The notes under the pieces: generated by a model
What the model was told of the DNA's origin: nothing
Databases searched by the model: none
The model's input: the letters and a program-made list of their open reading frames with translations, nothing else
Position numbers and translations under genes: made by a program
Assembly (NCBI GenBank): GCA_017622845.1
Contig: JAGAQJ010000004.1
Coordinates: 1 to 52,984 of the forward strand
DNA from: Lachnospiraceae bacterium
GTDB lineage: Bacteria > Bacillota > Clostridia > Lachnospirales > Lachnospiraceae
DNA: 52,984 bases
Direction: 5' to 3'
Part shown: piece after piece, positions 12,955-43,545 of the stretch
Layout of the letters: the number at the start of each line of letters is the position of its first letter
How positions within the stretch are numbered: position 1 is the stretch's first letter

Positions 12955-12959
12955 GACAA

Positions 12960-14492: not shown

Positions 14493-15851
14493 ATGAATAA
14501 AAAATATGAGATTGATATGTGCAGTGGCTCCGTGTTTCAAAAAATGCTCTTTTTTGCGATACCGCTTATGTGCTCAAGTATTCTTCAACTGCTGTTTAAT
14601 GCGGCTGATATTGTGGTTGTGGGGCGCTTTGCAGGTGACAATGCTCTGGCGGCAGTAGGTTCCAATACCGCGCTGATTAATTTACTGACAAACCTTTTTG
14701 TGGGACTGTCAATCGGCAGCAATGTACTGACAGCACAGTACTATGGTGCGAAAAAGCCTGCCGATTTGAAGGAGACGGTACATACGTCGATGCTGCTGAG
14801 CATTTGCAGCGGTGTCATCCTTACTGTAGTCGGCATTATCAGCGCACGCTGGCTTTTGGAGCTGATGCAGGCTCCGCCTGAGGTGTTAAGCCTTGCAGTT
14901 TTATACCTGAGAATTTACTTTTTGGGTATGACTTCCACGATGGTGTATAATTTCGGAAGCGCCATTCTGCGTGCGGTCGGAGATACCAAACGTCCGCTGT
15001 ATTATCTTTTGGGAGCAGGCATCGTAAATGTGATTTTGAACCTGTTCTTTGTCATTGTGTTAAAAATGGGGGTTGCAGGAGTCGGTGCGGCAACTGTGAT
15101 TTCGCAGACGATTTCAGCGATACTGGTGGTACGCTGTTTGATGAAGGAGCAGGGCGGAATTCATCTGGAGCTTAAGGAGCTTGCCATCTCGAAGGAAAAG
15201 CTGGGCAAAATCATGCGAATCGGTCTTCCGGCGGGGTTCCAGGGAACTGTGTTTTCCCTGTCAAATGTCGTGATTCAGTCTGCTGTCAATTCATTTGGAG
15301 CGATAGCGGTTGCAGGAAATTCGGCGGCTTCGAATATTGAAGGCTTTGTGTATATGGCGATGAATGCCTTTTATCAGGCAACGATATCCTTCACAAGTCA
15401 GAACTACGGTGCAAGGGAATACAAGCGCATTTACAAAATCCTGCTGGCAGGAGAGCTTTATGTTGTTGCAACAGGTATTCTGCTTGGCAATCTGGCAGTA
15501 TTTTTCGGAGAGGAATTACTTGGAATCTATTCGTCCAGTCCGGACGTAATTACGGCAGGTATGTCCCGATTAAAGATTATCTGCACCGTGTATGCACTGT
15601 GCGGCATTATGGATGTGCTGGTCGGAGCATTAAGAGGGATTGGATATTCTGTCATACCGATGATTGTGTCGCTGATAGGCGCCTGCGGACTGCGGCTTTT
15701 GTGGATTGCTACGGTATTTCAGATACCGCAGTATCACAGCCTGACTATGGTTTATCTTTCCTATCCGATTACATGGCTGATTACGCTTACTGTACATGCA
15801 GTTACCTTTGCGTTAGCGGCACGTAAGGTACTCAGAGCGGAGCACGCATAA
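14493..15851 (+). CDS. MATE family efflux transporter
   Basis: A 452-residue protein with about twelve helices. Typical features are MLFFAIPLMCSSILQLLFNA, ADIVVVGRFAGDNALAAVGS, FGSAILRAVGDTKRPLYYL and, in the second half, VGALRGIGYSVIPM. It has its own promoter and AGGAGA ribosome site, so it is separate from the preceding MATE gene despite being only 168 bases away. The two neighbouring transporters are only distantly similar to each other, so this is not a recent tandem duplication. The substrate is unknown. Confidence 0.9.
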   Translation: MNKKYEIDMCSGSVFQKMLFFAIPLMCSSILQLLFNAADIVVVGRFAGDNALAAVGSNTALINLLTNLFVGLSIGSNVLTAQYYGAKKPADLKETVHTSMLLSICSGVILTVVGIISARWLLELMQAPPEVLSLAVLYLRIYFLGMTSTMVYNFGSAILRAVGDTKRPLYYLLGAGIVNVILNLFFVIVLKMGVAGVGAATVISQTISAILVVRCLMKEQGGIHLELKELAISKEKLGKIMRIGLPAGFQGTVFSLSNVVIQSAVNSFGAIAVAGNSAASNIEGFVYMAMNAFYQATISFTSQNYGAREYKRIYKILLAGELYVVATGILLGNLAVFFGEELLGIYSSSPDVITAGMSRLKIICTVYALCGIMDVLVGALRGIGYSVIPMIVSLIGACGLRLLWIATVFQIPQYHSLTMVYLSYPITWLITLTVHAVTFALAARKVLRAEHA

Positions 15852-26666: not shown

Positions 26667-28358
26667 ATGGCAAGGACAGCAGCAATCGGGATACAGGACT
26701 TTGAAACAGTGATTACAAAAGAGTGCTTTTATGTTGATAAAACAAATTTTATCAAAGAGTGGTGGGAGCGCAATGACAGTGTCACATTAATTACCCGTCC
26801 GCGTCGTTTTGGGAAAACGCTTACTATGAGTATGGTGGAACGTTTTTTTTTCCGTGAAATATGCGGGACAGGGAAACGTATTTGAAAATCTTGCCATATG
26901 GAAGGAACAGGGATATCGGGAATTGCAGGGAACATACCCGGTAATCAGCTTGTCCTTTGCCAGCGTAAAGGAAAACAATTTTGAAATGGTAAGAAAAAAA
27001 TAAATCAGCTTTTGACGATGATTTATGAGAAAAATTCCTTTATAAAGGACAGCGGAATCCTGGGAGATAAAGAACTGGACTATTATAACAGGGTTTCCAA
27101 GGATATGGACGATAGTGATGCTTCACTGGCGCTATATCAAATGTCTGATTTCTTAAGCCGTTATTATGGTAAAAAGGTGATTATTCTGTTAGATGAGTAT
27201 GATACTCCGATGCAGGAGGCATATGTGGGCGGATATTGGGATGAGCTGGTATCTTATACAAGAAGTCTCTTTAACGCTGCCTTCAAAACCAATCCATATT
27301 TAGAGCGCGGTATTATGACAGGAATTACTCGGGTTAGTAAAGAGAGTATTTTTTTGGATTTAAACAATCTGAAAGTTGTAACAACAACATCCGATGAATA
27401 TGCAGATATTTTTGGCTTTACTGAACAAGAGGTATTTGCCGCAATGGATGAGTTTGGTTATGACGAAAAAGAGGAAGTCAAACTATGGTATGACGGCTTT
27501 ACGTTTGGAAAAATAAAGGATATTTACAATCCGTGGTCAATCATAAATTACCTTGATACAGGAAGGGTAGGCGCTTATTGGGCAAATACAAGCTCCAACA
27601 ATCTTGTCGGAAAACTGATTCGCGAAGGAAGTCAGGACATCAAGCAGAGCTTTGAAGGTTTGCTGCAGGGTGGAATGCTTGTTGCTGCGATTGATGAACA
27701 GATTGTATACAATCAGATTAGCGATGATGAAGACGCGATATGGAGCCTGCTTCTTGCAAGCGGCTATCTGAAGGTATTGTCTGTAGATGACACAGAAATG
27801 CGGATGGGGATTGGCAGCGTAAGGTATGAGCTGACATTGACAAACAGGGAAGTACGGATGATGTTTGAATCCATGATAAAAGGATGGTTCAGCGGGCGGT
27901 CGAAGGGAGATTACAATCGGTTTATCAAGGCGCTTCTAAGTGATGATAAAAAGCTGATGAATATCTATATGAATAAAGTTGCACTTGCAACAATCGGTTA
28001 TTTTGACAGTGGAAACCAGCCATCGGGAAGTGAGCCGGAGCGTTTTTATCATGGGTTTGTATTGGGACTGCTGGTAGATTTGCGCGGCAGGTATACGATA
28101 ACCTCCAATCGTGAGAGCGGCTATGGACGATATGACATTATGCTGGAACCGCAAAACAAGGATGATGCGGCAATAATTATGGAATTTAAGGTTTATGATG
28201 AGGAAGACGAAAAAACACTTCAGGATACTGTTGCATCAGCATTGGCACAGATAGAAGAAAAGAACTATGCACAAAGTCTGATTGAAAAAGGAATCCGGGA
28301 AGAAAAGATTCGAAAGTATGGTTTTGCTTTTCAGGGGAAAAAAGTCCTGATCGGGTGA
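26667..28358 (+). pseudogene. AAA-ATPase / PD-(D/E)XK protein (DUF1703 type) with two frameshifts
   Basis: A full-length gene of about 564 codons whose frame is interrupted twice. It starts ARTAAIGIQDFETVITKECF with P-loop LITRPRRFGKTLTMSM. At a run of nine T (26843-26851) the frame shifts by one extra base; the correct reading continues with FSVKYAGQGNVFENLAIWKE. At a run of seven A (26994-27000) one base is missing, after which the frame from 27012 continues to the end: IILLDEYDTPMQEAY (Walker B) and, near the C-terminus, YDIMLEPQNKDDAAIIMEFK (nuclease-like D...ExK). Both lesions sit in homopolymers and compensate each other. Sequencing error, slippage or decay are all possible. The family is common in Lachnospiraceae and Bacteroides; its role is unknown. 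Confidence 0.8.
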
Positions 28359-30187: not shown

Positions 30188-30214
30188 CAGCTTTTGGGAA
30201 AAGGGGTAACTACA

Positions 30215-31081
30215 ATGAAAAGAAAAATTTTAGCCGGAACGATGGCATTGTCTTTGGTTCTTGCAAACAGCATCACGGCTTTCGCTGCACCTGAGGCAAC
30301 AGAAGACGGAGGCGTATTTGACGCTGAGTATTATGCAGACAACAATCCTGATGTAGAAGCAGTATATGGACGTGATTTTAATCTGCTGTACCAGCATTTT
30401 GTTGCGTTTGGTGCACAGGAGGGCAGACTGCCGTTTGCGGTCGGAACAGATACGGCAGCTATTTTGGAAACAGCACAGACAGAAAACGTTTCACAGGAAC
30501 CGGCAGCTTCGGAAGAACCGGCGTCAGATATTGTATTGGCAGCGGAAGGTGTGGAATACCCTATAACTACATTTGTAAGAAGCGAGGATGATAATGGTAA
30601 TGAAGTTTTTTATTCATATACAGACAAAGTGAGTTCCCGCGATCCTCGTGAAGGTATAGAGGGACAGATTGATTATCAGGCGGTATATGCAATAAAACCG
30701 GCTAAGGAAGGATATGAATGGGTATCTGCAGGCTGGGCAGTTCTGGATGGTTGGACGGCGTGGTCTTGGAGTGTTGATAATGGAGACGCAGGAAGCTGGG
30801 ACGATGATTGCAGTGATGTCGAAAATTATGTAGACAGAGATGCACTCCACGGTTCGGATTATGCAAATTATGAGGTTTTCACAGGTTCGGTATCCTATAA
30901 TGGTTCGGAATATCCTATGATAGCAGTTATAGAGGACAATCCTGTTGGAGGAAGCGTATGGGCAATGGTACCGGAAGGATATACTGATATGTATCTGCAT
31001 GTCATGGGAAGCAAGGTTGAAAACGGAAAAATAGTATCGAACGAAGAAGATATGGTTACTTTCCAATTAAAGAAATACTAA
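30215..31081 (+). CDS. Secreted protein with signal peptide
   Basis: A 288-residue exported protein. Residues 1-27 are a signal peptide (KRKILAGTMALSLVLANSIT followed by AFAAP). Next comes one copy of the repeat type found in many Firmicutes surface proteins: FDAEYYADNNPDVEAVYGRD then FNLLYQHFVAFGAQEGRLP. After a Glu/Ala/Ser-rich linker, residues about 110-288 form an unfamiliar domain rich in Trp, Tyr and Asp (GWAVLDGWTAWSWSVDNGDA). No sortase signal or anchor was seen, so it is probably released or loosely wall-bound. It probably shares the XRE-controlled promoter with the 55-residue gene. Confidence 0.75.
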   Translation: MKRKILAGTMALSLVLANSITAFAAPEATEDGGVFDAEYYADNNPDVEAVYGRDFNLLYQHFVAFGAQEGRLPFAVGTDTAAILETAQTENVSQEPAASEEPASDIVLAAEGVEYPITTFVRSEDDNGNEVFYSYTDKVSSRDPREGIEGQIDYQAVYAIKPAKEGYEWVSAGWAVLDGWTAWSWSVDNGDAGSWDDDCSDVENYVDRDALHGSDYANYEVFTGSVSYNGSEYPMIAVIEDNPVGGSVWAMVPEGYTDMYLHVMGSKVENGKIVSNEEDMVTFQLKKY

Positions 31082-31214: not shown

Positions 31215-31445
31215 ATGGACAAATTATTACAGATTTTATCGGAATTGCATCCGGATATTGATTTCGAGACGCAGGACAAGTTGATTGATGGGATGATTTT
31301 GGATTCTTTTGATATTGTTACATTGATTTCTGAGATTAGCGAGGTCTTTGACGTAACCATTTCGGCGGAGCATATTATTCCTGACAATTTTAATTCCGCC
31401 AGGGCGTTATATGCGCTGATTCAGCAATTAGAGGACGAGGAGTAA
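31215..31445 (+). CDS. Phosphopantetheine-binding carrier protein (DltC/ACP-like)
   Basis: A 76-residue acidic, helical carrier protein. IDGMILDSFDIVTLISEISE has the Asp-Ser motif where phosphopantetheine attaches (Ser31), and FDVTISAEHIIPDNFNSA matches the third/fourth helix of acyl and D-alanyl carrier proteins. It is the first gene of an eight-gene run and fits as the carrier for the adenylation enzyme at 38852 and the MBOAT at 31481, as DltC serves DltA and DltB. No phosphopantetheinyl transferase is encoded nearby. The SFD instead of SLD after Asp is unremarkable for DltC-like carriers. Confidence 0.85.
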   Translation: MDKLLQILSELHPDIDFETQDKLIDGMILDSFDIVTLISEISEVFDVTISAEHIIPDNFNSARALYALIQQLEDEE

Positions 31446-31480
31446 CAAGTGCTTTTTAGAAAGCATGCGGGTATTGTCTT

Positions 31481-33073
31481 ATGTTATTTACATCATATGA
31501 ATTTATAGGGTTTACAGCAATTCTGTTATTTGTATATTATCTCATTCCGCAGAAGTATCAATGGATGCTGCTGCTTTTGTTCAGCTATATTTTTTATTAT
31601 ATGGCGGACCCGGCATATCTGATTTATATTCTTACCACGACCATTACAATATATTTTACAGCCTGCCTGATAGAAAAAAATGCAGACAGGCAGAGTGCAT
31701 TTTTGAAGCAGCATAAGGAAACACTGCTGCGAGATGAGAAGAAAGCTTATAAAGACGGGCAGAAGCGGATTCGCCGGCGCACGGCGGGGCTTTGCATTCT
31801 TCTTAATATCGGGATTCTGGCAGCGGTAAAATACACCAACTTCCTTATTGGAAATGTAAATGGTATGCTTCAGGCATTTGGGCAGGAAAAGCAGCTTTCT
31901 TTTGTCTCATTGGTGCTTCCGATGGGAATTTCTTTTTATACGTTTCAGGCAATAGGGTATCTTGTTGATGTTTACCGTGGAACTGTCCGCGCTGAAAAAA
32001 ATCCGTTGAAGTTCGCATTATTTGTGTCGTTTTTCCCCCAACTGGTTCAGGGACCGATTAGCCGTTTCGGAGACCTTTCAAAAAGCTTATATGAGAAGCA
32101 TTCCTTTGACAGCAAGGCAGTATGCTTTGGACTGCAGCGCATTCTTTGGGGATTCTTCAAGAAGCTGGTTATAGCAGACCGCATTTTGACAGGCGTGACG
32201 ACGATTATCAGTGATATTGATACATATAATGGAGTTTATGCGTTTGTGGGAATGGTGTTTTATACATTGGAACTGTATGCTGACTTCTCAGGAGGAATTG
32301 ATATAACGATTGGTATCGCAGAGGCGCTCGGCATTACGGTGCAGGAGAATTTCAACCGCCCTTATTTTTCAAAATCACTTAAGGAGTATTGGCGCCGATG
32401 GCATATATCAATGTGCAGTTGGTTTAGGGATTACATTTTTTATCCGGTGTCTGCCAGTAAAGCAATGCAGAAGTTTTCTAAGTTTGCCCGAAAGCATTGG
32501 GGAGACTCCATCGGAAAGCGGCTGCCGGTATATGCGGCAACCTTTATTGTCTGGTTTGCAACCGGGATATGGCATGGTGCAAACTGGAATTTTATTGTAT
32601 GGGGATTGGCAAACTGGTGTGTTTTGATGATATCCGAGGAATTGGAACCTGCCTATATGCAGTTTCACAACCGTTTTCACCTGGATAAAAAGCCTGCCTA
32701 TAAGCTGTTTCAGACAGCACGTACCTTTTTGCTTGTCTGCTGTTTGAATATGTTTGACTGCTACAGCTCAGTGGCCGAAACGTTCCGGGCGTTCGGAACA
32801 ATGTTCACGGCAGGGAACTGGGGTGTTTTGCGGGAGGGCGCTCTGCTGAATCTTGGGTTATCCATGCTCGACTATGGTATCCTGGTTTTTGGGGTCATTG
32901 TATTACTGGCAGTCAGCCTTGTCCAGCGAAGCGGCTCGGTGAGAGAGAAGATTGGTCGGAAACCGTATCCCATACGCGTCTGCCTGTGGTTCGGGATGTT
33001 TTTGCTGATTATTCTGCTTGGAGCATATGGCGTTGGATATGACTCCAGTCAATTCATTTATAACAGATTTTAG
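31481..33073 (+). CDS. MBOAT family O-acyltransferase (DltB/AlgI-like)
   Basis: A 530-residue membrane protein with about eleven helices. LVLPMGISFYTFQAIGYLVD and SFFPQLVQGPI, then LKEYWRRWHISMCSWFRDYI and FATGIWHGANWNFIVWG, are the MBOAT signatures. His308 (in RRWHIS) and His365 (in IWHGAN) are the two conserved histidines; the second is the usual catalytic candidate. In Dlt and alginate systems such proteins move an acyl or aminoacyl group from a carrier across the membrane to a polymer hydroxyl. Here the donor would be the carrier encoded 35 bases upstream and the acceptor an unidentified surface glycopolymer. It also resembles AlgI by length and ending. Confidence 0.9.
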   Translation: MLFTSYEFIGFTAILLFVYYLIPQKYQWMLLLLFSYIFYYMADPAYLIYILTTTITIYFTACLIEKNADRQSAFLKQHKETLLRDEKKAYKDGQKRIRRRTAGLCILLNIGILAAVKYTNFLIGNVNGMLQAFGQEKQLSFVSLVLPMGISFYTFQAIGYLVDVYRGTVRAEKNPLKFALFVSFFPQLVQGPISRFGDLSKSLYEKHSFDSKAVCFGLQRILWGFFKKLVIADRILTGVTTIISDIDTYNGVYAFVGMVFYTLELYADFSGGIDITIGIAEALGITVQENFNRPYFSKSLKEYWRRWHISMCSWFRDYIFYPVSASKAMQKFSKFARKHWGDSIGKRLPVYAATFIVWFATGIWHGANWNFIVWGLANWCVLMISEELEPAYMQFHNRFHLDKKPAYKLFQTARTFLLVCCLNMFDCYSSVAETFRAFGTMFTAGNWGVLREGALLNLGLSMLDYGILVFGVIVLLAVSLVQRSGSVREKIGRKPYPIRVCLWFGMFLLIILLGAYGVGYDSSQFIYNRF

Positions 33074-33096
33074 GGTTTAATTAAGGAAGCAGGAAG

Positions 33097-34146
33097 ATGA
33101 ATAAAGGGGAAATCATATTTAAGACAGGGATAACGCTGGTTATCGTAGTAGGTGTGTTGTATCTTCTGCAGCGTCTGCTTGTGCCAAAATATGTGGACGG
33201 CATTGTAGAAGGAGCCTTTGTTGCCGAATATTATCAGGAAAAAAATAAAGAGTTCGATGTGGTATTTATAGGTGATTGTGAAGTATACGAGAATTTTTCT
33301 CTGGTAACACTTTGGGAAGAATATGGGATAAACAGTTATATCAGAGGCAGCGCGGAGCAGTATATCTGGCAGTCTTATTATATGCTGGAGGATACGCTGA
33401 ATTATGATACACCGCAGGTAGTTGTATTTAATGTACAGTCTTTGCAGTTTAACGAATCTCAGTCAGAGGCATATAACCGCATGACCCTGGAAGGAATGAA
33501 GTGGTCTTCGGCTAAAGTAAAATCAATCCTTGCTTCTATGAAGGAAGATGAAAAATTTTTGGATTATGTATTTCCGATACTAAGATATCATACCAGATGG
33601 AGTGAACTTACAGCGGATGACTTTAAGTATATGTTTTCAGGGAAAAAGGTCACGCATAACGGTTATTATATGAGAGTGGATGTAAAGCCTGCTGAGAATG
33701 TACCTGTGGGCAGAATGCTTTCTGATTACAGCTTTGGCGATAACGCATGGAAATATTTGGACAAAATGGTGGAATTATGTGAGCAGAAGGGAATCACATT
33801 AATTTTGATCAAAGCTCCCAGCCTTTATCCTTATTGGTACGATGAATGGGATGCGCAGATAAAGGATTATGCAGAGGAAAAGGAACTCTTATATATCAAT
33901 TTTCTGCAGCTTATTGATGAGATAGGAATTGATTACAATACGGATACATATGATGCAGGACTCCATATGAATCTGTCGGGTGCAGAAAAGCTTTCTGTTT
34001 ATCTCGGCAGGATTTTGTCAGAAGAATTGAACGTTCCGGATCGCAGGAACGAGGATGATATCTCCAGAATATGGGAGCAGAAGATCATTGATTATGAATC
34101 GGAGATAGAGGTCCAATATGAATATTATGGGATAAATAAAGAGTAG
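33097..34146 (+). CDS. Membrane-anchored SGNH/DltD-like protein with Cys at nucleophile position
   Basis: A 349-residue protein with one N-terminal membrane helix (about 8-27) and an extracellular SGNH-type domain. The block-I motif, normally G(D/S)S, reads VVFIGDCEVYENF, placing Cys61 where the catalytic Ser is expected. The C-terminal D...H motif is present (Asp286 and His290 in DAGLHMNLSGAEKL), so a Cys-Asp-His set may replace Ser-Asp-His. DltD and AlgJ/AlgX-like partners of MBOAT proteins have this layout and either transfer or hydrolyse acyl groups outside the membrane. The gene follows the MBOAT gene by 23 bases, which fits that partnership. Confidence 0.75.
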   Translation: MNKGEIIFKTGITLVIVVGVLYLLQRLLVPKYVDGIVEGAFVAEYYQEKNKEFDVVFIGDCEVYENFSLVTLWEEYGINSYIRGSAEQYIWQSYYMLEDTLNYDTPQVVVFNVQSLQFNESQSEAYNRMTLEGMKWSSAKVKSILASMKEDEKFLDYVFPILRYHTRWSELTADDFKYMFSGKKVTHNGYYMRVDVKPAENVPVGRMLSDYSFGDNAWKYLDKMVELCEQKGITLILIKAPSLYPYWYDEWDAQIKDYAEEKELLYINFLQLIDEIGIDYNTDTYDAGLHMNLSGAEKLSVYLGRILSEELNVPDRRNEDDISRIWEQKIIDYESEIEVQYEYYGINKE

Positions 34147-34167
34147 CCGGAAGGGACAGTGAAAGAA

Positions 34168-36006
34168 ATGTGTGGGATATGCGGAATATATAATCTCCAC
34201 GGACAGAGAAAAATAGACAAAGAAATTGTGGGGCATATGCTGCAGGCAATCCGGCATAGGGGACCGGACGGAAGCAATATGCTGGTGAAGGATCAGATTG
34301 CGCTTGGATTTAACCGGCTGAGCTTCCTGGACTTAAGCGGCGGCATGCAGCCTATTTTGAATGAAGATCAGACCATTTCCATGATCTGCAATGGTGAAAT
34401 ATTTAACTATCAGGAGTTGAAGGCTGAGCTTTTGCTCAAAGGCCACAAATTCCGTACAGGGACAGATGTTGAAGTGGTACTGCATTTGTATGAAGAATAT
34501 GGGGTAGATTTTCCGAAGCGCTTAAATGGCCAGTTTGCGATTGCTCTTTATGATGAACGGGACAGACAGCTTGTTCTTGTGCGTGATCAGATTGGCATTT
34601 GCCCATTATTTTATACCGTGGCAGATAATCGTGTAATCTTCGCCTCAGAGATAAAAGCAATCTTGGAATATCCCCACATTGAGCGCAGATTAAACCTGAA
34701 AGCCGTCGATCAATTGATGAATTTTCCGGGAGTCGTATCACCGAATACATTTTTTCAGGGGATTTATTCTCTTGAGGCGGGGCATATGCTTCTGATAAGA
34801 CCGGAACAGGAAATCAGGAATTTGGAATTTTGGGATTTGATGTACAATCCGGAGGAAGAGGATAAAGGGGAAGACTATTATGTGGAAAAACTGCGTGAGC
34901 TGTTAAAAAAGGCAATTTCCAGAAGACTGATTGCTGATGTTCCGATCGGCTTTTATATATCAGGAGGATTGGACAGCTCAATTGTCGCATGTTATATTGG
35001 CAAATTTTTATTGAATAGTTATTATTCTTTTTCTGCGGAAATTGGTTCGGGAGACTTGGATGAGAGCCGCTTTCAGAAGATTGTACGTGACTGCGTAAAC
35101 TCATCCCATTACAGCACGAAGGTCGCGGAGGAGGAAATATGGAAAAATCTTCCGGACGTGATTTATCATGCGGAAAGCGCGGTGAAGGAAAGCTATGATG
35201 TGGCAGCATATATGCTGTCTGGTCTGGTTAGCAGTTCTCCGGCAAAAGCTGTCCTCACAGGACAGGGGTCGGATGAATTTTTTTACGGCTATGTGGGCTA
35301 TATGGTTGATTTATTCCGGAACATGCAGAAGGATAAGATGTCCGCTGAGGAATGTGCGGTAAATGAACAATTGTGGGGCGACCCGTATTTTCGCTTTGAG
35401 CGGAATCACTTGGAAATCCGAAAAATACACACAAAAATATACAGTGAGGATGTCCGTGGGGAAATTAATAAATTTTCTGCATGGGAATCAAGCCCGATTA
35501 ATATAGAACGCGTCAGGAATCTTAGCTCACAAAAAAGAAGGTCTTATATTGATTACAAATTGCGCCTTTCGGATCATCTGCTGGGGGAACATGGAGACAG
35601 AATGTTTTTCTCACATTCAGTGGAAGGTCGTCATCCGTTTTTGGATGCAGAGCTTTTAGACTTCATCATCACCATACCGGATAAATATAAATTAAAGGGA
35701 GTAAATGAGAAATATATCCTCAAAAAAGCAGGCGAGGGAATCGTACCGGAAGAAATATTGAAGCGTAAGAAATTTCCGTTTCAGGCTCCGGGAATGTCTG
35801 CAATGATTAAGAAGCCGTCAAACATTGATTTCCTGGAGGATAGTGTCATTAAAAAATATGGGGTGTTTGATGCGGATTATGTTAATAAAATGAAGCAAAT
35901 ATACAGTCAGGAAGATTTTAAATTAATGGGAGCTTATGAAATAGATTATTTGCTTATTGTTATGACTGTTACAATGCTGTGCGACAGGTATTCGCTTTCT
36001 GTCTAA
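34168..36006 (+). CDS. asnB: Glutamine-dependent asparagine-synthetase-like amidotransferase
   Basis: A 612-residue cytoplasmic enzyme. The start is ATG 34168, because Cys2 (MCGICGIYN) must become the N-terminal nucleophile of the glutaminase domain; the upstream GTG 34159 would bury it. Residues 1-200 hold the glutaminase (RGPDGSN, FNRLSFLDLSGGMQP, CNGEIFNYQEL, RTGTDVEVV). Residues about 210-612 hold the synthetase with PP-loop SGGLDSSIVA and VEGRHPFLDAELLDF. The sequence is complete and looks active. Classic AsnB makes Asn from Asp and Gln via an acyl-AMP. Inside this operon it may amidate the Asp or Glu that is racemised or loaded on the carrier. Confidence 0.88.
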   Translation: MCGICGIYNLHGQRKIDKEIVGHMLQAIRHRGPDGSNMLVKDQIALGFNRLSFLDLSGGMQPILNEDQTISMICNGEIFNYQELKAELLLKGHKFRTGTDVEVVLHLYEEYGVDFPKRLNGQFAIALYDERDRQLVLVRDQIGICPLFYTVADNRVIFASEIKAILEYPHIERRLNLKAVDQLMNFPGVVSPNTFFQGIYSLEAGHMLLIRPEQEIRNLEFWDLMYNPEEEDKGEDYYVEKLRELLKKAISRRLIADVPIGFYISGGLDSSIVACYIGKFLLNSYYSFSAEIGSGDLDESRFQKIVRDCVNSSHYSTKVAEEEIWKNLPDVIYHAESAVKESYDVAAYMLSGLVSSSPAKAVLTGQGSDEFFYGYVGYMVDLFRNMQKDKMSAEECAVNEQLWGDPYFRFERNHLEIRKIHTKIYSEDVRGEINKFSAWESSPINIERVRNLSSQKRRSYIDYKLRLSDHLLGEHGDRMFFSHSVEGRHPFLDAELLDFIITIPDKYKLKGVNEKYILKKAGEGIVPEEILKRKKFPFQAPGMSAMIKKPSNIDFLEDSVIKKYGVFDADYVNKMKQIYSQEDFKLMGAYEIDYLLIVMTVTMLCDRYSLSV

Positions 36007-36053
36007 TAAGCTTTGGGGAGAAAATATAACAGACCGATAGGAGAGTGCTGAGG

Positions 36054-38111
36054 ATGAGCAAAAAGAAACGGAGAAATAAAAAGAAAACTGCAGTTCAAAA
36101 AAAGACTGCAGTTCAAAAGAAAGCCGCGGCTCGAAAAAAAGCTGCAGCTCGAAAAAAAGCTGCAGCGCAAAAGAGAGTCATAGCGCAAAAGAGAATGCAG
36201 GAAGCTGCTGAAAAGCCGGCAGAGCCTTATACGGAAGAAGCCGCTGTAAAAGAGATACCGGAAGAACCCTGTGCAGAAGAAGCCGCTGCGAAAGAGACAC
36301 CGGAAGAATTTGTGCTGAAAGATGATAATTCAAACAAACCAGCGGCGGAAGAAAATCCTGCAGAAAAAGCGGAAGAACCCGTTGCGGAAGCAGAAACAGA
36401 AGAAGGCTCCGGTACTGAAGCAGCCTCACAAGAACCTGTTGCGGAAGCTGCTGCGGAAGAAGATTCCTCACAAATATCAGAAAAGAAACGTTTAAAAATT
36501 TCAAAAAAGCAAAGGACGCTGCTTACTGCTGTCCTGGCTGTTTTGCTCATCGGTTCAGCTATCGGGTTATGGCTTTATCAGGAGAACCTTGTATATAAAG
36601 TATGCCGTGTGGAGGCTGGTGTGCCTGTCAGTGTAGGAGACTTTTTAAAGAAGGAAGACGAAACTGCTTATTTTACAGAGAAAAGCGATGAAATTCATAT
36701 CAATGTTCCGGGAGAATATCATCTGAATGTAAAAACAGGTTTGTGGACTCATGACTGCACACTTTATATAGAGGATACGATACCGCCGGAAGTAGAGGTG
36801 CAGCCCGTTACAGTTGAATACGGACAGACTTGCGGTGCGATGGATTTTATAAGCAGTGTAACGGACGCTACAGAAACAACTGCTTCGTTTTTTACGGAAG
36901 AACCTGATTTTTCCCTGACAGAAAATCAAAAGGTTGTTATTGCTGTAACTGATGCAGGAAATAATGTAACGATAGCAGAAACGGAACTGAAGGTTTCTAT
37001 GGTTGCCAGTTCTCTTACCGTGGAAGCAGGAAGCGATGCGCCGGCTGTTTCTGATTTTGTCCTGATAGGCTCAGGCGCAGAAATGATTACGAATATGGAC
37101 AGCATTGATTTTACAAAGCCCGGGGTTCACAACGTAGTCATCGAGCTGTATGGGGAACGCTATACAACTGCAATGGAGATAGCAGATACAGTCGCTCCGG
37201 TTTTTAAAGTAAAGGATCTGGAACTATATGCCAATCTAAGCAGGGAACCGGGTGATTTTGTGGAAAGCGCTGAAGATGTAACGGAAATAACCTATTCTTT
37301 TGAGACAAAGCCGGATTTCACTATGATTGGTACGCAGGAAGTTGTTATTATTGCGACGGATGAAGGCGGAAACCGGTCACAGCAGGAAGCGAAACTGACC
37401 TTGCTGGAAGATACAGAGCCGCCGACAATCGTGGGAGCAGAGGATAGGACAGTTTTTCAGAAAAGCAGTGTTTCCTATAAAACAGGGGTAAGAGCGCATG
37501 ACAATTGTGAGGAAGGACTTGTCCTTTCCGTAGATGCCAGCGCTGTCAACATAAATGAGATTGGCACCTATCCGGTTGTATATACTGCGACAGACCGTGC
37601 AGGGAATACCACTACGGTTTCCGTGAACCTGACAGTCAGGGAACAAACATATGATATCAATGAGGTAAATGCATTAGCAGATGCAGTGCTTGCAAAAATA
37701 ATCACAGATGACATGTCTCAATACGATAAGGCATGGGCGATTTTTCAGTATATCAGAGGGCATGTTGGTTATATCAGTCATTCTGAAAAGGGAAATTATG
37801 TAAGGGCAGCATATGAAGGCCTGGTAAACGGACGCGGTGACTGCTATGTATATGCAAGTACATCAAAAGTGCTTTTGACAAGAGCGGGAATCCCCAATTT
37901 GGATATTGAGAGAATTCCGTCAGGAACATCAATGCACTATTGGAATCTTGTTGACATTGGTGACGGATGGGGCTGGTATCATTTTGACACGACGCCGAGA
38001 GTGGATCATCCTACGATATTCCTTTGGAATGACACACAGATAACAGAATATTCCAACAGCCATAAAAACTGCCATAATTATGATCGTTCGCGGTATCCGG
38101 AGATAAAATGA
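36054..38111 (+). CDS. Membrane-anchored transglutaminase-like protein with Lys/Ala repeats and Ig-like domains
   Basis: A 685-residue protein in four parts. Residues 5-45 are six near-repeats of a KKxA unit (KKTAVQKKTAVQKKAAARKK), strongly basic and presumably cytoplasmic; 46-145 are acidic and Pro/Glu/Ala-rich; 155-175 are one membrane helix (LLTAVLAVLLIGSAIGLWLY); about 190-520 contain Ig-like, DUF5011-type domains (VYTATDRAGNTTTVSVNLTV). The C-terminus is a transglutaminase-like core with Cys597 (GRGDCYVYAS), His628 (SMHYWNLVDIG) and Asp645 (WYHFDTTP), all three catalytic residues present. It may cleave or form amide links at the cell surface. The start at ATG 36054 has TAGGAGAG upstream; GTG 36045 is the alternative. 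Confidence 0.85.
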   Translation: MSKKKRRNKKKTAVQKKTAVQKKAAARKKAAARKKAAAQKRVIAQKRMQEAAEKPAEPYTEEAAVKEIPEEPCAEEAAAKETPEEFVLKDDNSNKPAAEENPAEKAEEPVAEAETEEGSGTEAASQEPVAEAAAEEDSSQISEKKRLKISKKQRTLLTAVLAVLLIGSAIGLWLYQENLVYKVCRVEAGVPVSVGDFLKKEDETAYFTEKSDEIHINVPGEYHLNVKTGLWTHDCTLYIEDTIPPEVEVQPVTVEYGQTCGAMDFISSVTDATETTASFFTEEPDFSLTENQKVVIAVTDAGNNVTIAETELKVSMVASSLTVEAGSDAPAVSDFVLIGSGAEMITNMDSIDFTKPGVHNVVIELYGERYTTAMEIADTVAPVFKVKDLELYANLSREPGDFVESAEDVTEITYSFETKPDFTMIGTQEVVIIATDEGGNRSQQEAKLTLLEDTEPPTIVGAEDRTVFQKSSVSYKTGVRAHDNCEEGLVLSVDASAVNINEIGTYPVVYTATDRAGNTTTVSVNLTVREQTYDINEVNALADAVLAKIITDDMSQYDKAWAIFQYIRGHVGYISHSEKGNYVRAAYEGLVNGRGDCYVYASTSKVLLTRAGIPNLDIERIPSGTSMHYWNLVDIGDGWGWYHFDTTPRVDHPTIFLWNDTQITEYSNSHKNCHNYDRSRYPEIK

Positions 38112-38127
38112 TAAAGAGGAAAACAGC

Positions 38128-38844
38128 ATGAAAAAATTGGGGATAATAGGCGGTCTTGGACCTATGGCTACAGCGTATTTTTTACAGCTAATCGTTGAGA
38201 TGACAGATGCGCTGACGGACCAGGGGCATATCGAGGTGCTGCTGCATAGCAGACCTCAGATACCGGACCGGACGAAGTTTATATTAGGGGTCAGTCGGGA
38301 TAGTCCTGTGCCATATCTTGTTGAGACTGGAGTGACGCTGGCAGAGCAGGGAGCGGAGCTGATAGCAATTCCCTGCATTACAGCACACTTTTTTCAGAAT
38401 CAGCTGGAAGAAAAAATCGGATGCCCGATGATACATACGATTGAAGAAACAGCAGATTATCTTAGGAGCGAGCATATCCATCATGTGGGAATCATGGCTA
38501 CGGATGGGACAATTAAGAGTGAATTATTTCAGCAGGTACTTGCCGGGTATGATATTGCGTGCACAGTGCCGCAAACGGAAGAACAAGGCAAGATTATGCA
38601 CATCATTTATGACAATGTGAAAGCAGGACTGCCGATTGAAATGGATTTGTTCGAAGAAGTATCGCGAAAGCTTTTTGCACAGGGAGCAGAAGTCCTGTTG
38701 CTCGGTTGTACAGAGCTGTCTTTGATAAAGGGGAATTATAGGCTTGGAAAGGGCTATTTGGATGTTATGGAGGTTTTGGCGAGACGGGCTGTTTTGTCCT
38801 GCGGGAAATTGAAATCAGAATATCAACATTTGATTACGAGGTGA
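38128..38844 (+). CDS. Aspartate/glutamate racemase family protein
   Basis: A 238-residue cytoplasmic enzyme. KLGIIGGLGPMATAYFLQLI is the standard Asp/Glu racemase start. The two catalytic cysteines are Cys83 (AIPCITAHFF) and Cys194 (LLLGCTELSLI), so a PLP-independent two-base racemase is expected. The first motif has Ile where PCNTAH is common. The substrate may be Asp, Glu or another amino acid. It sits between the transglutaminase and adenylation genes (17 and 7 bases), which suggests that it makes a D-amino acid for this pathway. Confidence 0.88.
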   Translation: MKKLGIIGGLGPMATAYFLQLIVEMTDALTDQGHIEVLLHSRPQIPDRTKFILGVSRDSPVPYLVETGVTLAEQGAELIAIPCITAHFFQNQLEEKIGCPMIHTIEETADYLRSEHIHHVGIMATDGTIKSELFQQVLAGYDIACTVPQTEEQGKIMHIIYDNVKAGLPIEMDLFEEVSRKLFAQGAEVLLLGCTELSLIKGNYRLGKGYLDVMEVLARRAVLSCGKLKSEYQHLITR

Positions 38845-38851
38845 GAAGGCT

Positions 38852-40366
38852 GTGCAAAATCATGTATTGGATTATTTAAACGAAATTGTGATAAAAAAAC
38901 CGGATAAATTGGCATTTGCCAATGAGTATGAAGGAATGACATTCCGGCAGGTATACGATCAGAGCAGAGCGATTGGAACTTATCTGCACCAACAAGGGGT
39001 ATATCGGAAGCCGGTTGTGATATTCATGAGTAAACATCCCAGACAGGTGACTGCTTTTTTCGGCGTGATTACCGCGGGGGATTTCTATGTCCCGGTTGAT
39101 GAAGAGATGCCTGCCGGAAGGATTCAATTAATCCTTGATAACGTAAAGGCGCCAGTCATTATATGCGATGAAAAGACAGCAGGCATTGCCGCGGCATTTG
39201 ACTATGACGGCAAAATTGTGCTGTATCAGGATATTTGCAGAACCGCTGTCTGTGAGACTGCTATTCAAAAAATCCATGATGAGGCAATTGATACCGATCC
39301 GATTTATATTGTGTTTACATCAGGGTCTACCGGCATTCCTAAGGGAGTCGCAGCATGTCACAGGTCGGTGATTGATTATATTGAGCAGCTTTCGGAAACA
39401 CTGGAGTTTGATGAAGATACTATTTTTGGAAACCAGACACCGCTTTATTTTGATGCCTGCCTCAAGGAATTGTATCCGACCCTGAAATTTGGCGCAACGA
39501 CTTATTTGATTCCCAAAAGCTTATTTATGATGCCGATAAAACTGGTGGAATTTATGAATGAGCATCGGATTAATACGGTGTGCTGGGTTGTTTCCGCACT
39601 GACAATGATTTCCGCATTTGGTACGTTTAAGGCAGTTAAACCGGAATATCTGCATACAGTCGTGTTTGGCAGTGAGGTATTCCCGATCAAACAGTTTCAT
39701 ATTTGGAAATCCGTTCTTCCGAATGCTAAGTTTACAAATTTATACGGACCTACGGAAGGAACCGGAATGTGCTGCTATTATAAAGTGAATCGGGAATTTG
39801 AGCTAAATGAAGTGATTCCTATCGGCAGGCCGTTTAAGAACACAGAGATTATTCTGCTTAATGAAAAAGATGAGCGTGCAGGACAGGGCGAGACAGGAGA
39901 AATCTGTATCCGGGGCACATCGCTAACACTTGGTTATTATAACAATTTTGAGAAGACACGCGAAGTTTACGTACAGAATCCGCTGAACACGGCGTATCCG
40001 GAACTGATTTATCGGACAGGCGATCTCGGAAAATATAATGAACGCGGAGAGCTTGTGTTCGTATCCAGAAAGGATTACCAGATTAAGCATATGGGGCATC
40101 GCATTGAGCTTGGCGAGATTGAAGTGAATGTCAATCTGTTAGACGGGATAAGACTTTCAGGGTGCATTTATGATAATGAGAGGGGTAAAATTGTATTGTA
40201 TTATGTCGGCAGTATAACGGATAAGGATTTGGCAAAGGCCTTAAAGGAAAAGCTTCCGCGTTATATGGTTCCGAACCGTATCATACAATTGGTCGAAATG
40301 CCGCTGACTGCAAACGGAAAAATTGACAGAGTTACTTTGAAGAAAAGATATTTGGAGGAAAAATGA
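38852..40366 (+). CDS. Stand-alone amino-acid adenylation enzyme (DltA-like A domain)
   Basis: A 504-residue AMP-forming enzyme with GTG start behind GAGGTGAG. The core motifs are IYIVFTSGSTGIPKGVAACH (A3), YFDACLKELYP (A4, the Asp that binds the amino group is present), NLYGPTEGTG (A5), YRTGDLGKYNERGELVF (A7) and TANGKID with the catalytic Lys (A10). There is no carrier or condensation domain, as in DltA, and the carrier is a separate gene (31215). At the position that I align with DltA Cys269, which helps select D-alanine, this protein has Gly273 (VVFGSEVFP), so a substrate other than D-Ala is plausible. It ends four bases inside the next gene (ATGA). Confidence 0.85.
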   Translation: MQNHVLDYLNEIVIKKPDKLAFANEYEGMTFRQVYDQSRAIGTYLHQQGVYRKPVVIFMSKHPRQVTAFFGVITAGDFYVPVDEEMPAGRIQLILDNVKAPVIICDEKTAGIAAAFDYDGKIVLYQDICRTAVCETAIQKIHDEAIDTDPIYIVFTSGSTGIPKGVAACHRSVIDYIEQLSETLEFDEDTIFGNQTPLYFDACLKELYPTLKFGATTYLIPKSLFMMPIKLVEFMNEHRINTVCWVVSALTMISAFGTFKAVKPEYLHTVVFGSEVFPIKQFHIWKSVLPNAKFTNLYGPTEGTGMCCYYKVNREFELNEVIPIGRPFKNTEIILLNEKDERAGQGETGEICIRGTSLTLGYYNNFEKTREVYVQNPLNTAYPELIYRTGDLGKYNERGELVFVSRKDYQIKHMGHRIELGEIEVNVNLLDGIRLSGCIYDNERGKIVLYYVGSITDKDLAKALKEKLPRYMVPNRIIQLVEMPLTANGKIDRVTLKKRYLEEK

Positions 40367-40950
40367 GAAAGATTGTGAAAAAAACTGCAATTGTTATTTT
40401 ATTAGCTTTTACACTGGTTGGATGCGGTGAAGAGAGAGTAATCGAAGGAACTGTGACGAATGCTGTTACGGACAATGGAACGGCGGAAGCAGAAAATGAG
40501 GCTGCGACTGCAGCCGGGGAACCGCAGAATGATAGTGAAAATGCCGGGCAGGGATATATTTTTGAGGCACAAGGGGTTGCCATTGCGATTGATGCAGACG
40601 CAGAAGCTTACATTGAAGCCCTGACTGAGCTGATTTCTTATTATGAGGCGCCAAGCTGCGCATTTGGAGACCTTGATAAGATATACACATATAGCGGATT
40701 TGAACTGGATACATATTCCATTAACGGCAGGGACTATGTGAAATCCATCATTTTGCAGGATGATTCTGTTATGACGCCTGAGGGCGTATGCATCGGCGAT
40801 GCGGCTGAAAAAATTGAGGAGATATATGGAGCTGCGTCTTCAGCAGATGATGAAATGATGTTATATGTTAAGGACAATATGAAACTCTGTTTCCTTATCA
40901 GAGAAGGTCAGGTTGTATCAATCGAATATCTTTCTACAGTTCTTGATTAA
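40363..40950 (+). CDS. Lipoprotein of unknown function
   Basis: A 195-residue protein with a signal peptide ending in a lipobox (FTLVGC; Cys21 is the lipidation site), a 40-residue low-complexity Ala/Glu/Asn linker and an alpha/beta domain of about 120 residues (IAIDADAEAYIEALTELISY, then GVCIGDAAEKIEEIYGAAS). The IGDAAEKIEEIYG segment resembles the helices of small lipoproteins of Clostridia that recur as repeats. The ATG overlaps the adenylation gene stop, so translation is coupled. It closes the eight-gene run and is probably a surface component of the same system. Confidence 0.75.
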   Translation: MRKIVKKTAIVILLAFTLVGCGEERVIEGTVTNAVTDNGTAEAENEAATAAGEPQNDSENAGQGYIFEAQGVAIAIDADAEAYIEALTELISYYEAPSCAFGDLDKIYTYSGFELDTYSINGRDYVKSIILQDDSVMTPEGVCIGDAAEKIEEIYGAASSADDEMMLYVKDNMKLCFLIREGQVVSIEYLSTVLD

Positions 40951-40987: not shown

Positions 40988-41016
40988 TTGCATAATTATG
41001 CATTTTATGCTAGATT
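40988..41016 (+). promoter_or_regulatory. Probable promoter overlapping an ArgR-like palindrome
   Basis: TTGCAT and TAGATT are separated by 17 bases. The perfect 14-base palindrome TGCATAATTATGCA at 40989-41002 overlaps the -35 and resembles ARG-box half-sites (consensus TGAATnnnnATTCA, here TGCAT and ATGCA). The following amino-acid ABC transporter could be controlled here. Confidence 0.4.
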
Positions 41017-41030
41017 ATGTAGGAAAAGAC

Positions 41031-41068
41031 AAGGTAGTCCATAGTATTCCGGTGGACTGCCTTCTTTT
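41031..41068 (+). terminator. Terminator or leader attenuator
   Basis: AAGGTAGTCCA and TGGACTGCCTT pair over 11 positions (one G-U) around an 11-base loop, then TCTTTT. It terminates the preceding operon. If the promoter at 40988 is real, it lies in the leader of the ABC transporter mRNA, which also contains CTGCATG/CATGCAG arms at about 41078 and 41107. Confidence 0.7.
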
Positions 41069-41162
41069 ATGTACAGGGCTGCATGGGGAAAACAGCCGCA
41101 CAGCGGCATGCAGTCTGAGCATTCAAATTTATATACGTTTGTATAGCAAGGAGGAAGTTATT

Positions 41163-42086
41163 ATGAAGAAAAAATTGTTAACAGTATGCGTTTGCGCAGC
41201 AATGGTGATGTCGCTTGCAGCCTGCGGAGGCTCTGGCAGTGCCGATACAAGTGCTGATGCGGCAGTACAGCAGGAAGCAGCTGCGACAGAAGTAGTTACG
41301 ATGGAAGCAGTTACCACAGAAGCAGATAGTGCTGATACGGCAGCTTCCGCAGAAGCAGAGGAGGAAGGCAATGCCTCATATACGCTGCAGGAAGGCAAGC
41401 TTATGGTAGGCATGGAAATCGGATATCCTCCGATGGAGTACTTTGATACAGACGGCGCGACACCCATCGGCTTTGACGTTGAGGTTGCAAAGGCAGTAGC
41501 AGACTACCTCGGACTTGAGGTTGAGTATGTTGATACAGCATGGGATGGTATCTTTGCAGGTGTTAATACGGATAAATATGACGTGATCTTCTCATGCGTG
41601 AGCATCACTCCCGCAAGACAGGAAGAATTTAACATTTCTAAGCCGTATGTGTCCAACCACACGGTTTTAATCGTTCCCAACGATTCGGAGATTGATTCTC
41701 TGGAGGCTTTAAACGGCCATTCGACAGCCGTACAGGCTGAGACAACAGCGGACGACTACATGAAAGAGCACGGCGCAGAAATCGGCGTTGAGCTTTTCCA
41801 GTATGACAAGGTAATCAACTGCTTTGATGATTTGAAGACAGGACGTGTTGACAGTGTATTTACAGACAGCGTAGTAGCAGCTTACTATCTTGGCGATGAA
41901 GCAGCAAACTACAAGACGGTATGGGAAAATGAAGAGCTTGAGCCAATCGGCTTCTGCGTAAAGAAGGGCAATGACGAGCTTACAAACAAGCTTGACGAAG
42001 CAATCGACGCATTGTATGCAGACGGAACAATGGCTTCTATCGCAGAGAAATATTTTGGTTCGGACCTGACAGCAGGCTTACGATAG
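41163..42086 (+). CDS. Amino-acid ABC transporter, substrate-binding lipoprotein
   Basis: A 307-residue lipoprotein: signal peptide with lipobox SLAAC (Cys21), then an Ala/Thr/Glu-rich linker to about residue 75, then a solute-binding type 3 domain: LMVGMEIGYPPMEYFD, PIGFDVEVAKAVADYLGLEV and NCFDDLKTGRVDSVFTDS. This is the polar amino-acid (GlnH/FliY/ArtJ) family; the ligand is not readable. The start is ATG 41163, 8 bases after AAGGAGG; a much longer frame to 40998 runs through the leader. First gene of a four-gene unit with permease, ATPase and EamA exporter. Confidence 0.92.
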   Translation: MKKKLLTVCVCAAMVMSLAACGGSGSADTSADAAVQQEAAATEVVTMEAVTTEADSADTAASAEAEEEGNASYTLQEGKLMVGMEIGYPPMEYFDTDGATPIGFDVEVAKAVADYLGLEVEYVDTAWDGIFAGVNTDKYDVIFSCVSITPARQEEFNISKPYVSNHTVLIVPNDSEIDSLEALNGHSTAVQAETTADDYMKEHGAEIGVELFQYDKVINCFDDLKTGRVDSVFTDSVVAAYYLGDEAANYKTVWENEELEPIGFCVKKGNDELTNKLDEAIDALYADGTMASIAEKYFGSDLTAGLR

Positions 42087-42114
42087 ATTTAGGATGTAAA
42101 GAGAGGATTGGATT

Positions 42115-42768
42115 ATGCTACAACAGATGATTAGCTGGCTTCCGCAATTGCTGGAGGGAGCCAGGACTACAATACTGCTCACAATCTGTGCAGTGTGCAT
42201 GGGATTACTTTTAAGTATCTTTCTTGCACTTGGAAAAATGTCAAAAAAGAAGCTGATAAGCAAGCTTTGCAGTGCGTACATATTTTTCTTCAGGGGCACG
42301 CCGCTTCTGATGCAGTTGTATTTTATCTATTTCGGCCTGCCGCAGATTAATATGGCGCTTACCATCAACAGCAGATTTCTGGCAGCATTTATAGCCTTCT
42401 CCTTAAACAGTGCGGCGTACTGTTCAGAAATCATCAGGGCAGCAATCCAGTCCATTGACAAGGGACAATTTGAGGCTTCCAAGGCTCTGGGGCTTTCCAA
42501 TGCCCAGACGATGCGGCTTGTCATCTTTCCGCAGTCCATCAGACGTTTGATTCCGCCTGTTGCAAATGAGTTTATCATGGTGCTGAAGGATGCATCTCTT
42601 GTGTCCATCATCGCGCTTTCCGACCTCACAAAGGTAACGCGTGCCATTTCATCATCAACCGGTACGGCGCTTGTTTATATTCCGGCAATGGTGATTTACC
42701 TGATTATGACAGCTTTCTTTGAGTTTATCTTCCATAAGCTTGAGGCAAAGTTTTCGAAGTACGAATAA
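42115..42768 (+). CDS. Amino-acid ABC transporter permease
   Basis: A 217-residue His/Glu/Gln/Arg-type permease (HisM/GlnP family). WLPQLLEGARTTILLTICAV at the start, FFRGTPLLMQLYFIYFGLPQ and NSAAYCSEIIRAAIQSIDKG, then QFEASKALGLSNAQTMRLVI, are the standard EAA-loop motifs that contact the ATPase. Five transmembrane segments are expected. It lies 28 bases after the binding-protein gene. Confidence 0.93.
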   Translation: MLQQMISWLPQLLEGARTTILLTICAVCMGLLLSIFLALGKMSKKKLISKLCSAYIFFFRGTPLLMQLYFIYFGLPQINMALTINSRFLAAFIAFSLNSAAYCSEIIRAAIQSIDKGQFEASKALGLSNAQTMRLVIFPQSIRRLIPPVANEFIMVLKDASLVSIIALSDLTKVTRAISSSTGTALVYIPAMVIYLIMTAFFEFIFHKLEAKFSKYE

Positions 42769-42786
42769 TAGGAGGAAGCAAACGAT

Positions 42787-43545
42787 ATGTCAATGATAAA
42801 GGTGGAGCACCTTGCAAAAAGCTTTGGTGAACTAAAGGTATTGGAGGATGTAAATCTGACTGTAGAGCCGGGAGAGGTTGTGGTAATCATCGGACCGTCA
42901 GGAGCCGGAAAGTCAACATTTCTGCGTTCCCTGAATCGTCTGGAGAAGATTACAAGCGGCAAGATTTTTATAGAGGACGAGCTTTTTTATCACAGGGAGC
43001 ATGATAAGACTATCTCAAAGATGGAGACCAAAAAACATAAGGCGCTTCTGCTTGAGATGGGCATGGTTTTTCAGCGGTTTAACCTTTTTCCGCACAAGAC
43101 GGTGCTTGAGAATGTGATGCTGGCGCCAGTGCATGTCAAGAAGGTAAGTAAGCAGCAGGCAGAGGAAACGGCAAAGAGACTGATTGCAAAGGTAGGGCTT
43201 GCAGACAAGCTTGATGAGTATCCGGCAAGGCTTTCGGGCGGACAGCAGCAGCGTGTTGCCATTGCAAGAGCACTTGCCATGGAACCCAAAATGATGCTTT
43301 TTGACGAGCCGACCTCAGCGCTGGACCCGGAGCTTGTCGGAGAAGTGCTGAATGTTATGAAGGACCTTGCCAATCAGGGAATGACCATGCTGTGCGTCAC
43401 GCATGAGATGGGCTTTGCGCGCGAGGTGGCAGACAAAGTTGTCTTTATGGCAAACGGAAGAATACTTGAGGAGGGAACACCGGAGGAAATCTTTACGAAT
43501 CCAAAGTCGCCCGAGGCAAAACAGTTCCTTCGAAGCGTACTTTAA
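42787..43545 (+). CDS. Amino-acid ABC transporter ATP-binding protein (GlnQ-like)
   Basis: A 252-residue ATPase. Walker A is GPSGAGKST, the signature is [15 protein letters not shown], Walker B is [13 protein letters not shown] and the switch His is in CVTHEMGFA. It belongs to the polar amino-acid (GlnQ/ArtP) class. An insertion of about ten residues after Walker A ([14 protein letters not shown]) is seen in a subgroup of clostridial GlnQ proteins. It is 18 bases after the permease gene with AGGAGGAAG upstream. Confidence 0.94.

Follow-up and report, generated by a model that had tools for sequence, protein, structure and literature searches.

D-alanylation is the best-known export of an amino acid onto the wall polymers of Gram-positive bacteria. 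Its Dlt machinery comprises an adenylation enzyme, a carrier protein, an MBOAT acyltransferase, and an SGNH-fold protein (DltA, DltC, DltB, and DltD). In the MBOAT-SGNH relays, PatA acylates the tyrosine of an FxYxxF motif, which in Dlt sits on the microprotein DltX, and the pathways other than Dlt are described, in the part of the source consulted, as operating without a carrier protein (PMC12148441). We analyzed a 52,984-nucleotide stretch from a Lachnospiraceae bacterium (assembly GCA_017622845.1, contig JAGAQJ010000004.1; referred to here as the window) that contains a cluster of genes for these four components together with an Asp/Glu-type racemase, a transglutaminase-like protein, a lipoprotein, and an AsnB-like amidotransferase. 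Judged from its sequence, the cluster is a variant of the MBOAT-SGNH acyl relay that is Dlt-like but not Dlt. The MBOAT histidine, the FxYxxF tail with its acyl-shuttle tyrosine, and the SGNH-fold partner are all present, whereas the usual serine nucleophile of the SGNH protein is replaced by Cys61. In contrast to PatA/PatB-type O-acyltransferases, which transfer acetyl from acetyl-CoA, the cluster would use a carrier-borne amino acid, and its SGNH protein has cysteine at the nucleophile site. Because a Dlt-type carrier donor is combined with a PatA-type fused shuttle, the cluster is a hybrid of the two. Literature searches at the level of search entries, with subscription literature outside their scope, returned no description of this gene set.

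The cluster is a conserved set with sharp borders. Loci were collected by homology to the SGNH protein, with flanks as far as the contigs permitted, to give a total of 121: the window, 40 loci from 39 genomes that were the best matches after the window's own among 200 genomes from the window's bacterial family (199 genera; the set was also used for genome-wide counts), and the best 80 of at least 578 confirmed relatives from a scan of genome contigs. An SGNH homolog of at least 45% identity was present in 35 of the 200 family genomes, the window's own included. Across the 121 loci, the MBOAT was found in 115, the carrier in 104, the adenylation enzyme, transglutaminase, and lipoprotein in 101 each, the racemase in 72, and AsnB in 29. 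Where the SGNH gene had 5.8 kb of sequence on either side (77 loci), the MBOAT was present in 77, the carrier in 72, the adenylation enzyme and transglutaminase in 71 each, the lipoprotein in 68, the racemase in 56, and AsnB in 16; such counts are not independent, as over 77 loci the racemase label changes nine times on the SGNH tree and the AsnB label six times. The SGNH proteins of the 121 loci have a median identity of 57% and form 116 groups at 90% identity, so the recurrence of the gene set cannot be attributed to chance. The four-part Dlt-like logic proposed in an earlier sequence-only reading of the window is borne out, and the co-occurrence that it suggested checking holds for the core genes, the transglutaminase among them. 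Gene order differs between loci, but the member genes remain together; a cultured relative, Agathobacter ruminis JK623 (L115), shares the order of the window. Conservation of the added neighbors beside the Dlt-like core, on which the earlier reading depended, held for the racemase and the transglutaminase and failed for AsnB.

The matched control consisted of 20 of the next 23 SGNH matches from the same bacterial family (G142, G092, and G147 were omitted, and some stretches were cut by contig ends). These more distant loci contained no transglutaminase, racemase, or lipoprotein, and five had an adenylation enzyme. By record title, the 80 scanned loci belong to Lachnospiraceae (50), Oscillospiraceae (11), Clostridiaceae (4), or no stated family (15); many are metagenome assembled, and some taxon labels may be wrong. 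The window's closest neighbor on the SGNH tree, at 77% identity, comes from a contig with the title uncultured Roseburia. When the other neighboring open reading frames (ORFs) of at least 100 amino acids were grouped by BLAST, no family occurred in more than 7 of the 121 loci, and a shared polymer gene or regulator, sought in all 121 neighborhoods, was not found. The carrier-bound amino acid might instead enter a small secreted compound rather than a surface polymer or protein, given that free adenylation enzymes and carriers also serve natural-product pathways and that the carrier's top NCBIfam match is cispentacin AmcB, below its cut-off. The lack of any further recurrent gene family argues against such a product, as do the shuttle-motif MBOAT, the SGNH-fold protein, the anchored transglutaminase, and the lipoprotein, all of them parts suited to envelope transfer, and we regard it as very improbable.

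The eight ORFs of the window were confirmed, with successive intergenic gaps of 35, 23, 12, 38, 16, 7, and −4 bases (Table 1). The spacing of 7 to 47 bases or overlap given previously holds as a description of a tight + strand set, except that the 47 bases separate the lipoprotein gene from the next gene at 40998. The previous family assignments agree with profile matches above cut-off for every protein apart from the SGNH protein, placed by predicted fold, and the lipoprotein, which has no family.

Table 1. Genes of the cluster in the window, with profile matches and key residues
Feature	Position	Strand	Profile matches, residues, and remarks
Carrier protein, 76 amino acids	31215..31445	+	PF00550 above cut-off; phosphopantetheine Ser31
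MBOAT acyltransferase, 530 amino acids	31481..33073	+	PF03062 above cut-off; His365; C-terminal FIYNRF (codons 33053-33070)
SGNH-fold membrane-anchored protein	33097..34146	+	Cys61 at nucleophile site (33277-33279); D286/H290
AsnB-like glutamine amidotransferase, accessory	34159..36006	+	TIGR01536, 441 bits (cut-off 267); start codon probably at 34168, giving an N-terminal Cys
Transglutaminase-like protein, membrane anchored, also with Ig-like domain	36045..38111	+	PF01841 and PF16403 above cut-off; triad C600/H631/D648
Asp/Glu-type racemase	38128..38844	+	PF01177, TIGR00035, and NF052483 (CuyB) above cut-offs; C83 and C194
Free adenylation enzyme	38852..40366	+	TIGR01733, 317.6 bits (cut-off 317.4); pocket DAKCVGLGMK; K205 codon 39464-39466
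Lipoprotein, no family	40363..40950	+	Fold resembles N-terminal part of CAP-domain proteins and YjgB; Cys99

To judge from their intact catalytic residues, the parts look like working enzymes. As in Dlt, the carrier has its phosphopantetheine serine, Ser31, which is kept in 104/104 aligned carriers. The MBOAT His365 is kept in 110/110 proteins of at least 400 amino acids and the Cys-His-Asp triad of the transglutaminase in 99/99 of at least 250, limits that skip five MBOATs and two transglutaminases. The racemase retains C83, C194, and R48 in 72/72 and K165 in 71/72, with one unread, and a lipoprotein cysteine apart from the lipobox, Cys99, is invariant (101/101). The FxYxxF motif forms the C-terminal end of 110 of the 115 MBOATs, and FIY is retained in four of the remaining five. 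No separate DltX-like ORF ending in FxYxxF is present in the window, where the MBOAT is the only ORF ending in this way; five of the other 120 loci have an ORF with this ending, each short (13 to 31 amino acids), encoded on the minus strand of its stretch and apparently a chance occurrence. In one locus (L065:4705-5959), the MBOAT reads as two overlapping ORFs, perhaps through a frameshift or an assembly error. The window's genome (G000) encodes five further DltB-like MBOATs on contigs 27, 32, 45, and 72, none above the DltB cut-off; the one on contig 72 adjoins a Ser-type SGNH protein (L188).

Five tested features of Dlt (DltA, the D-Ala pocket, DltB, DltD, and DltX) failed, and the cluster is therefore not classed as Dlt. 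The adenylation enzyme scored 275.9 bits against the DltA model TIGR01734 (cut-off 559.85) and 285.2 against PRK04813 (cut-off 476), the MBOAT scored 157 bits against the DltB model TIGR04091 (cut-off 375), and no DltD family match was obtained among 24 SGNH members. DltA-clade proteins of related genomes carry the pocket code DLMVLCTVAK or DLMVLCTVCK in 8/8 read (L086 was left out), both with the pocket cysteine of DltA. In six canonical dlt stretches from the same family, each about 11 kb long, the MBOAT has 383 to 396 amino acids and lacks FxYxxF, a DltD-like GSSE protein is present in five, a 53-amino-acid ORF ending in FxYxxF is present in four, and the racemase, transglutaminase, and lipoprotein models found no match in any. 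The cluster differs in its pocket code, in fusing the motif to a longer MBOAT, in its non-DltD SGNH protein with cysteine for serine, and in its three additional proteins. A plain dlt operon was rejected on the cut-offs, the pocket code, and the canonical stretches. A diverged DltA/C/B/D set that serves as the lineage's own D-alanylation, placing D-Ala on teichoic acid beside unrelated neighbors, would share the identical four-part logic; a substitute of this kind is conceivable, as DltA exceeds the curated cut-off in only 6 of the 200 family genomes and the window genome's next best match to the adenylation enzyme is only 25% identical. The pocket code, the scores far under the DltA and DltB cut-offs, the missing DltD match, the Asp-type racemase, and the absence of the three additional proteins from the canonical stretches make it quite improbable.

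The SGNH protein is a weak match by sequence, with 17.3 bits against PF13472 (cut-off 32.9); that family was seen at E values up to 0.1 in 23 of 24 SGNH members. A profile search against solved structures returned nothing relevant and one chance-level match. In its predicted fold, the SGNH identity is clear, with matches that include DltD and PatB. The nucleophile site is cysteine in 114/121 loci, and the histidine of the DxxH motif is kept in 121/121. Serine occupies the site in 20/20 distant relatives, the loci of which have no transglutaminase. On the SGNH tree, the Ser-to-Cys change amounts to approximately one event, and the gain of the transglutaminase maps to about the same branch, which suggests that the two share a chemical step. 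Among the loci with a serine nucleophile and no transglutaminase, L183, L184, L190, L191, and L197 combine MBOAT and SGNH genes with an adenylation enzyme and a carrier and are putative further carrier-dependent relays.

The cargo was predicted from the adenylation pocket, read at positions 201, 202, 205, 244, 271, 273, 297, 305, 306, and 490, which follow the PheA numbering as transferred through an alignment with gramicidin synthetase. K205 stands where the ten-letter glutamate code has its lysine, and a Lys-to-Gln change at this place turns Glu into Gln selectivity. Surfactin synthetase module 1, part of a peptide assembly line, differs from the window code at 5/10 positions. In the consulted part of PMC10548584, the code of that module is given as DAKDLGVV for Glu/Asp, which shares with the window code the initial DAK and the glycine at the sixth place. 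Our literature searches did not locate a printed source for all ten letters of the glutamate code; one paper gives its first six letters, and the part of PMC3039948 consulted contains no code. A full adenylation enzyme is present in 94 loci, and lysine or arginine occurs at its position 205 in 68/68 of those with the racemase and 20/26 of those without it (Fisher P = 0.0003, uncorrected for kinship). For racemase-less loci, an Asp-type racemase (E < 1e-15) was found elsewhere in 11/16 genomes with a basic pocket versus 0/4 with a non-basic one (P = 0.026), a search that left out the basic-pocket loci L153, L171, L076, and L078 and the non-basic L074 and L075. Racemases at this threshold occur in 52/200 family genomes, which means that part of the 11 may have no connection with the cluster.

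The close racemase subfamily is tied more tightly to the cluster. Racemases of at least 45% identity occur in 21 of the 200 family genomes, all among the 35 with an SGNH homolog of at least 45%; 18 adjoin the SGNH gene, and 3 lie on other contigs beside a transglutaminase. These data support the earlier assignment of the racemase as a member of the system. It shares both catalytic cysteines with aspartate/cysteate racemases (PH0670-like and CuyB), and its arginine and lysine match the substrate site of PH0670; it differs in being a subfamily, known by sequence, that accompanies the cluster. The cargo is likely to be an acidic amino acid, and the D form is slightly favored. Of the cargoes proposed previously, D-Asp/D-Asn or D-Glu/D-Gln, the acidic forms agree with the basic pocket, and Asn or Gln as the loaded form is disfavored by K205.

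AsnB had been envisaged as a step of the core pathway; its presence in only 29/121 loci instead marks it as an accessory. Its N-terminal cysteine is present in 28/29, with one gap. The motif TGQGSDE was found in 27/29, lacking the acidic residue of SGEGSDE, and its glutamine stands in the position of E348 of Escherichia coli AsnB; the acceptor may therefore not be free aspartate. Wherever an AsnB locus encodes a full adenylation enzyme, K205 is kept (25/25; four further AsnB loci have none), so AsnB is not accompanied by an amide-type pocket. A role as the housekeeping asparagine synthetase was rejected, as three other AsnB proteins in the window's genome score above cut-off, one (L092) with SGDGGDE and two without a match to the pattern. 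AsnB and the adenylation enzyme also match, below cut-off, the models of two families from XrtA/PEP-CTERM exopolysaccharide loci: AsnB scores 372.7 bits against the TIGR03108 amidotransferase (cut-off 816.9), and the adenylation enzyme scores 190 against the TIGR03098 ligase (cut-off 592).

The transglutaminase-like protein of the window matches PF01841 at 35.8 bits (cut-off 23) and has a single transmembrane-like stretch at residues 156 to 174. Sequence comparison with solved structures returned mainly Ig-like matches and one weak transglutaminase match.

Taken together, these features are consistent with the export-and-transfer role proposed earlier, and we think it somewhat probable that the cluster serves as a dedicated system for transferring acidic aminoacyl groups across the membrane. 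The racemase would yield an acidic amino acid in its D form, D-Asp being the most likely. The adenylation enzyme would activate the alpha-carboxyl, with K205 gripping the side-chain carboxylate, and load the carrier, from which the MBOAT would transfer the amino acid to its own C-terminal tyrosine (FIYNRF). Cys61 of the SGNH protein would then accept it as a thioester, rather than the usual serine ester, for transfer to a cell-surface acceptor, aided by two further proteins, the anchored transglutaminase-like protein and the lipoprotein. In some lineages, AsnB would place an amide somewhere in the pathway. That the product is an amide or a cross-link is doubtful, and a two-cysteine extracellular relay, running from the MBOAT tyrosine through the SGNH cysteine thioester to a transglutaminase that forms an amide, is a shade more doubtful still.

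Several observations weigh against the acidic-aminoacyl transfer system. The pocket code is itself a prediction, and the case is built from sequence and predicted fold. The window pocket differs from the ten-letter glutamate code at 5/10 positions, three of them non-conservative. The choice of D-Asp in preference to D-Glu is a guess, since peptidoglycan synthesis already supplies D-Glu. The racemase also exceeds the cysteate racemase (CuyB, NF052483) cut-off, and 5 of the 16 searched genomes with racemase-less, basic-pocket loci have no clear racemase. Both points would fit the same relay with an L-acidic amino acid or cysteate as cargo, the racemase feeding or balancing a pool used elsewhere, as would the 20/88 basic-pocket loci without a racemase in the stretch; we consider such a cargo unlikely, as in the 200 family genomes the close racemase subfamily is always accompanied by this SGNH protein (21/21).

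The remaining objections concern the transglutaminase-like protein. Its link to the SGNH cysteine rests on approximately one evolutionary event, and L070 combines it with a serine nucleophile. Five loci (L065, L066, L069, L070, and L071) have the transglutaminase, MBOAT, SGNH, and lipoprotein genes, while their stretches contain neither adenylation enzyme nor carrier; in their genomes, a DltA-family match better than 1e-25 occurs in G061 and G130 and none in G022, G117, and G198. Four other transglutaminase loci (L063, L064, L067, and L068) have a non-basic pocket, for example, DVHFFAMHVK in L067, and probably carry another amino acid. Both groups imply that the transglutaminase is independent of the acidic amino acid, and its presence without an adenylation enzyme in the stretch places it on the acceptor side, not tied to one amino acid. 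The loci that lack an adenylation enzyme and carrier would also suit a role as hydrolase or sensor, in which the protein trims or monitors the modification without contributing to acyl transfer, and transglutaminase-like domains include many proteases. Such a role, compatible with all of the steps up to the SGNH thioester, is a serious contender at somewhat less than even chances; the gain of the transglutaminase on about the same branch as the Ser-to-Cys change speaks for a shared chemical step instead.

Other genes of the window were recorded around the cluster. An amino acid ATP-binding cassette (ABC) transporter at 40998-43545, with a binding protein matching SBP_bac_3 and a permease and ATPase called by appearance only, begins 47 bases past the lipoprotein gene and could be cotranscribed with the cluster; it is no recurrent neighbor among the 121 loci. 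A scan for operon limits gave 31 promoter-like sites versus 24.7 expected and 15 terminator-like sites versus 7.4 expected. Just upstream, 30194-31081 encodes a protein that starts with a signal-like stretch and matched no family in the profile search. Farther away, 27012-28358 encodes an AAA-ATPase-like/PDDEXK_9 protein, the N-terminal part of which may be missing, as its ATPase match spans only positions 114 to 201 of the 201-position profile. Three MATE-family transporters lie at 4327-5670, 12894-14324, and 14493-15851.

Compared with the sequence-only reading, the fused acyl-shuttle motif, the SGNH Ser-to-Cys swap, the invariant lipoprotein cysteine, and the transglutaminase loci without an adenylation enzyme in the stretch are new. 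The cluster unites a carrier-protein donor and an MBOAT with its own shuttle tail, halves that have been described as separate, and it offers a direct way to examine why an acyltransferase of the SGNH type would trade serine for cysteine. If the two-cysteine relay were true, D-aspartate would be amide linked, or surface proteins and polymers would be cross-linked through D-aspartate, by a D-amino acid export-and-couple system apart from teichoic acid D-alanylation, with a transfer side that runs on other donors in some relatives. More broadly, the locus points to the export, by Dlt logic combined with transglutaminase chemistry, of a different and acidic amino acid in many gut and rumen Clostridia. 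It predicts an unrecognized D-amino acid modification on commensals, which may be of interest with regard to surface charge and to recognition by the host.

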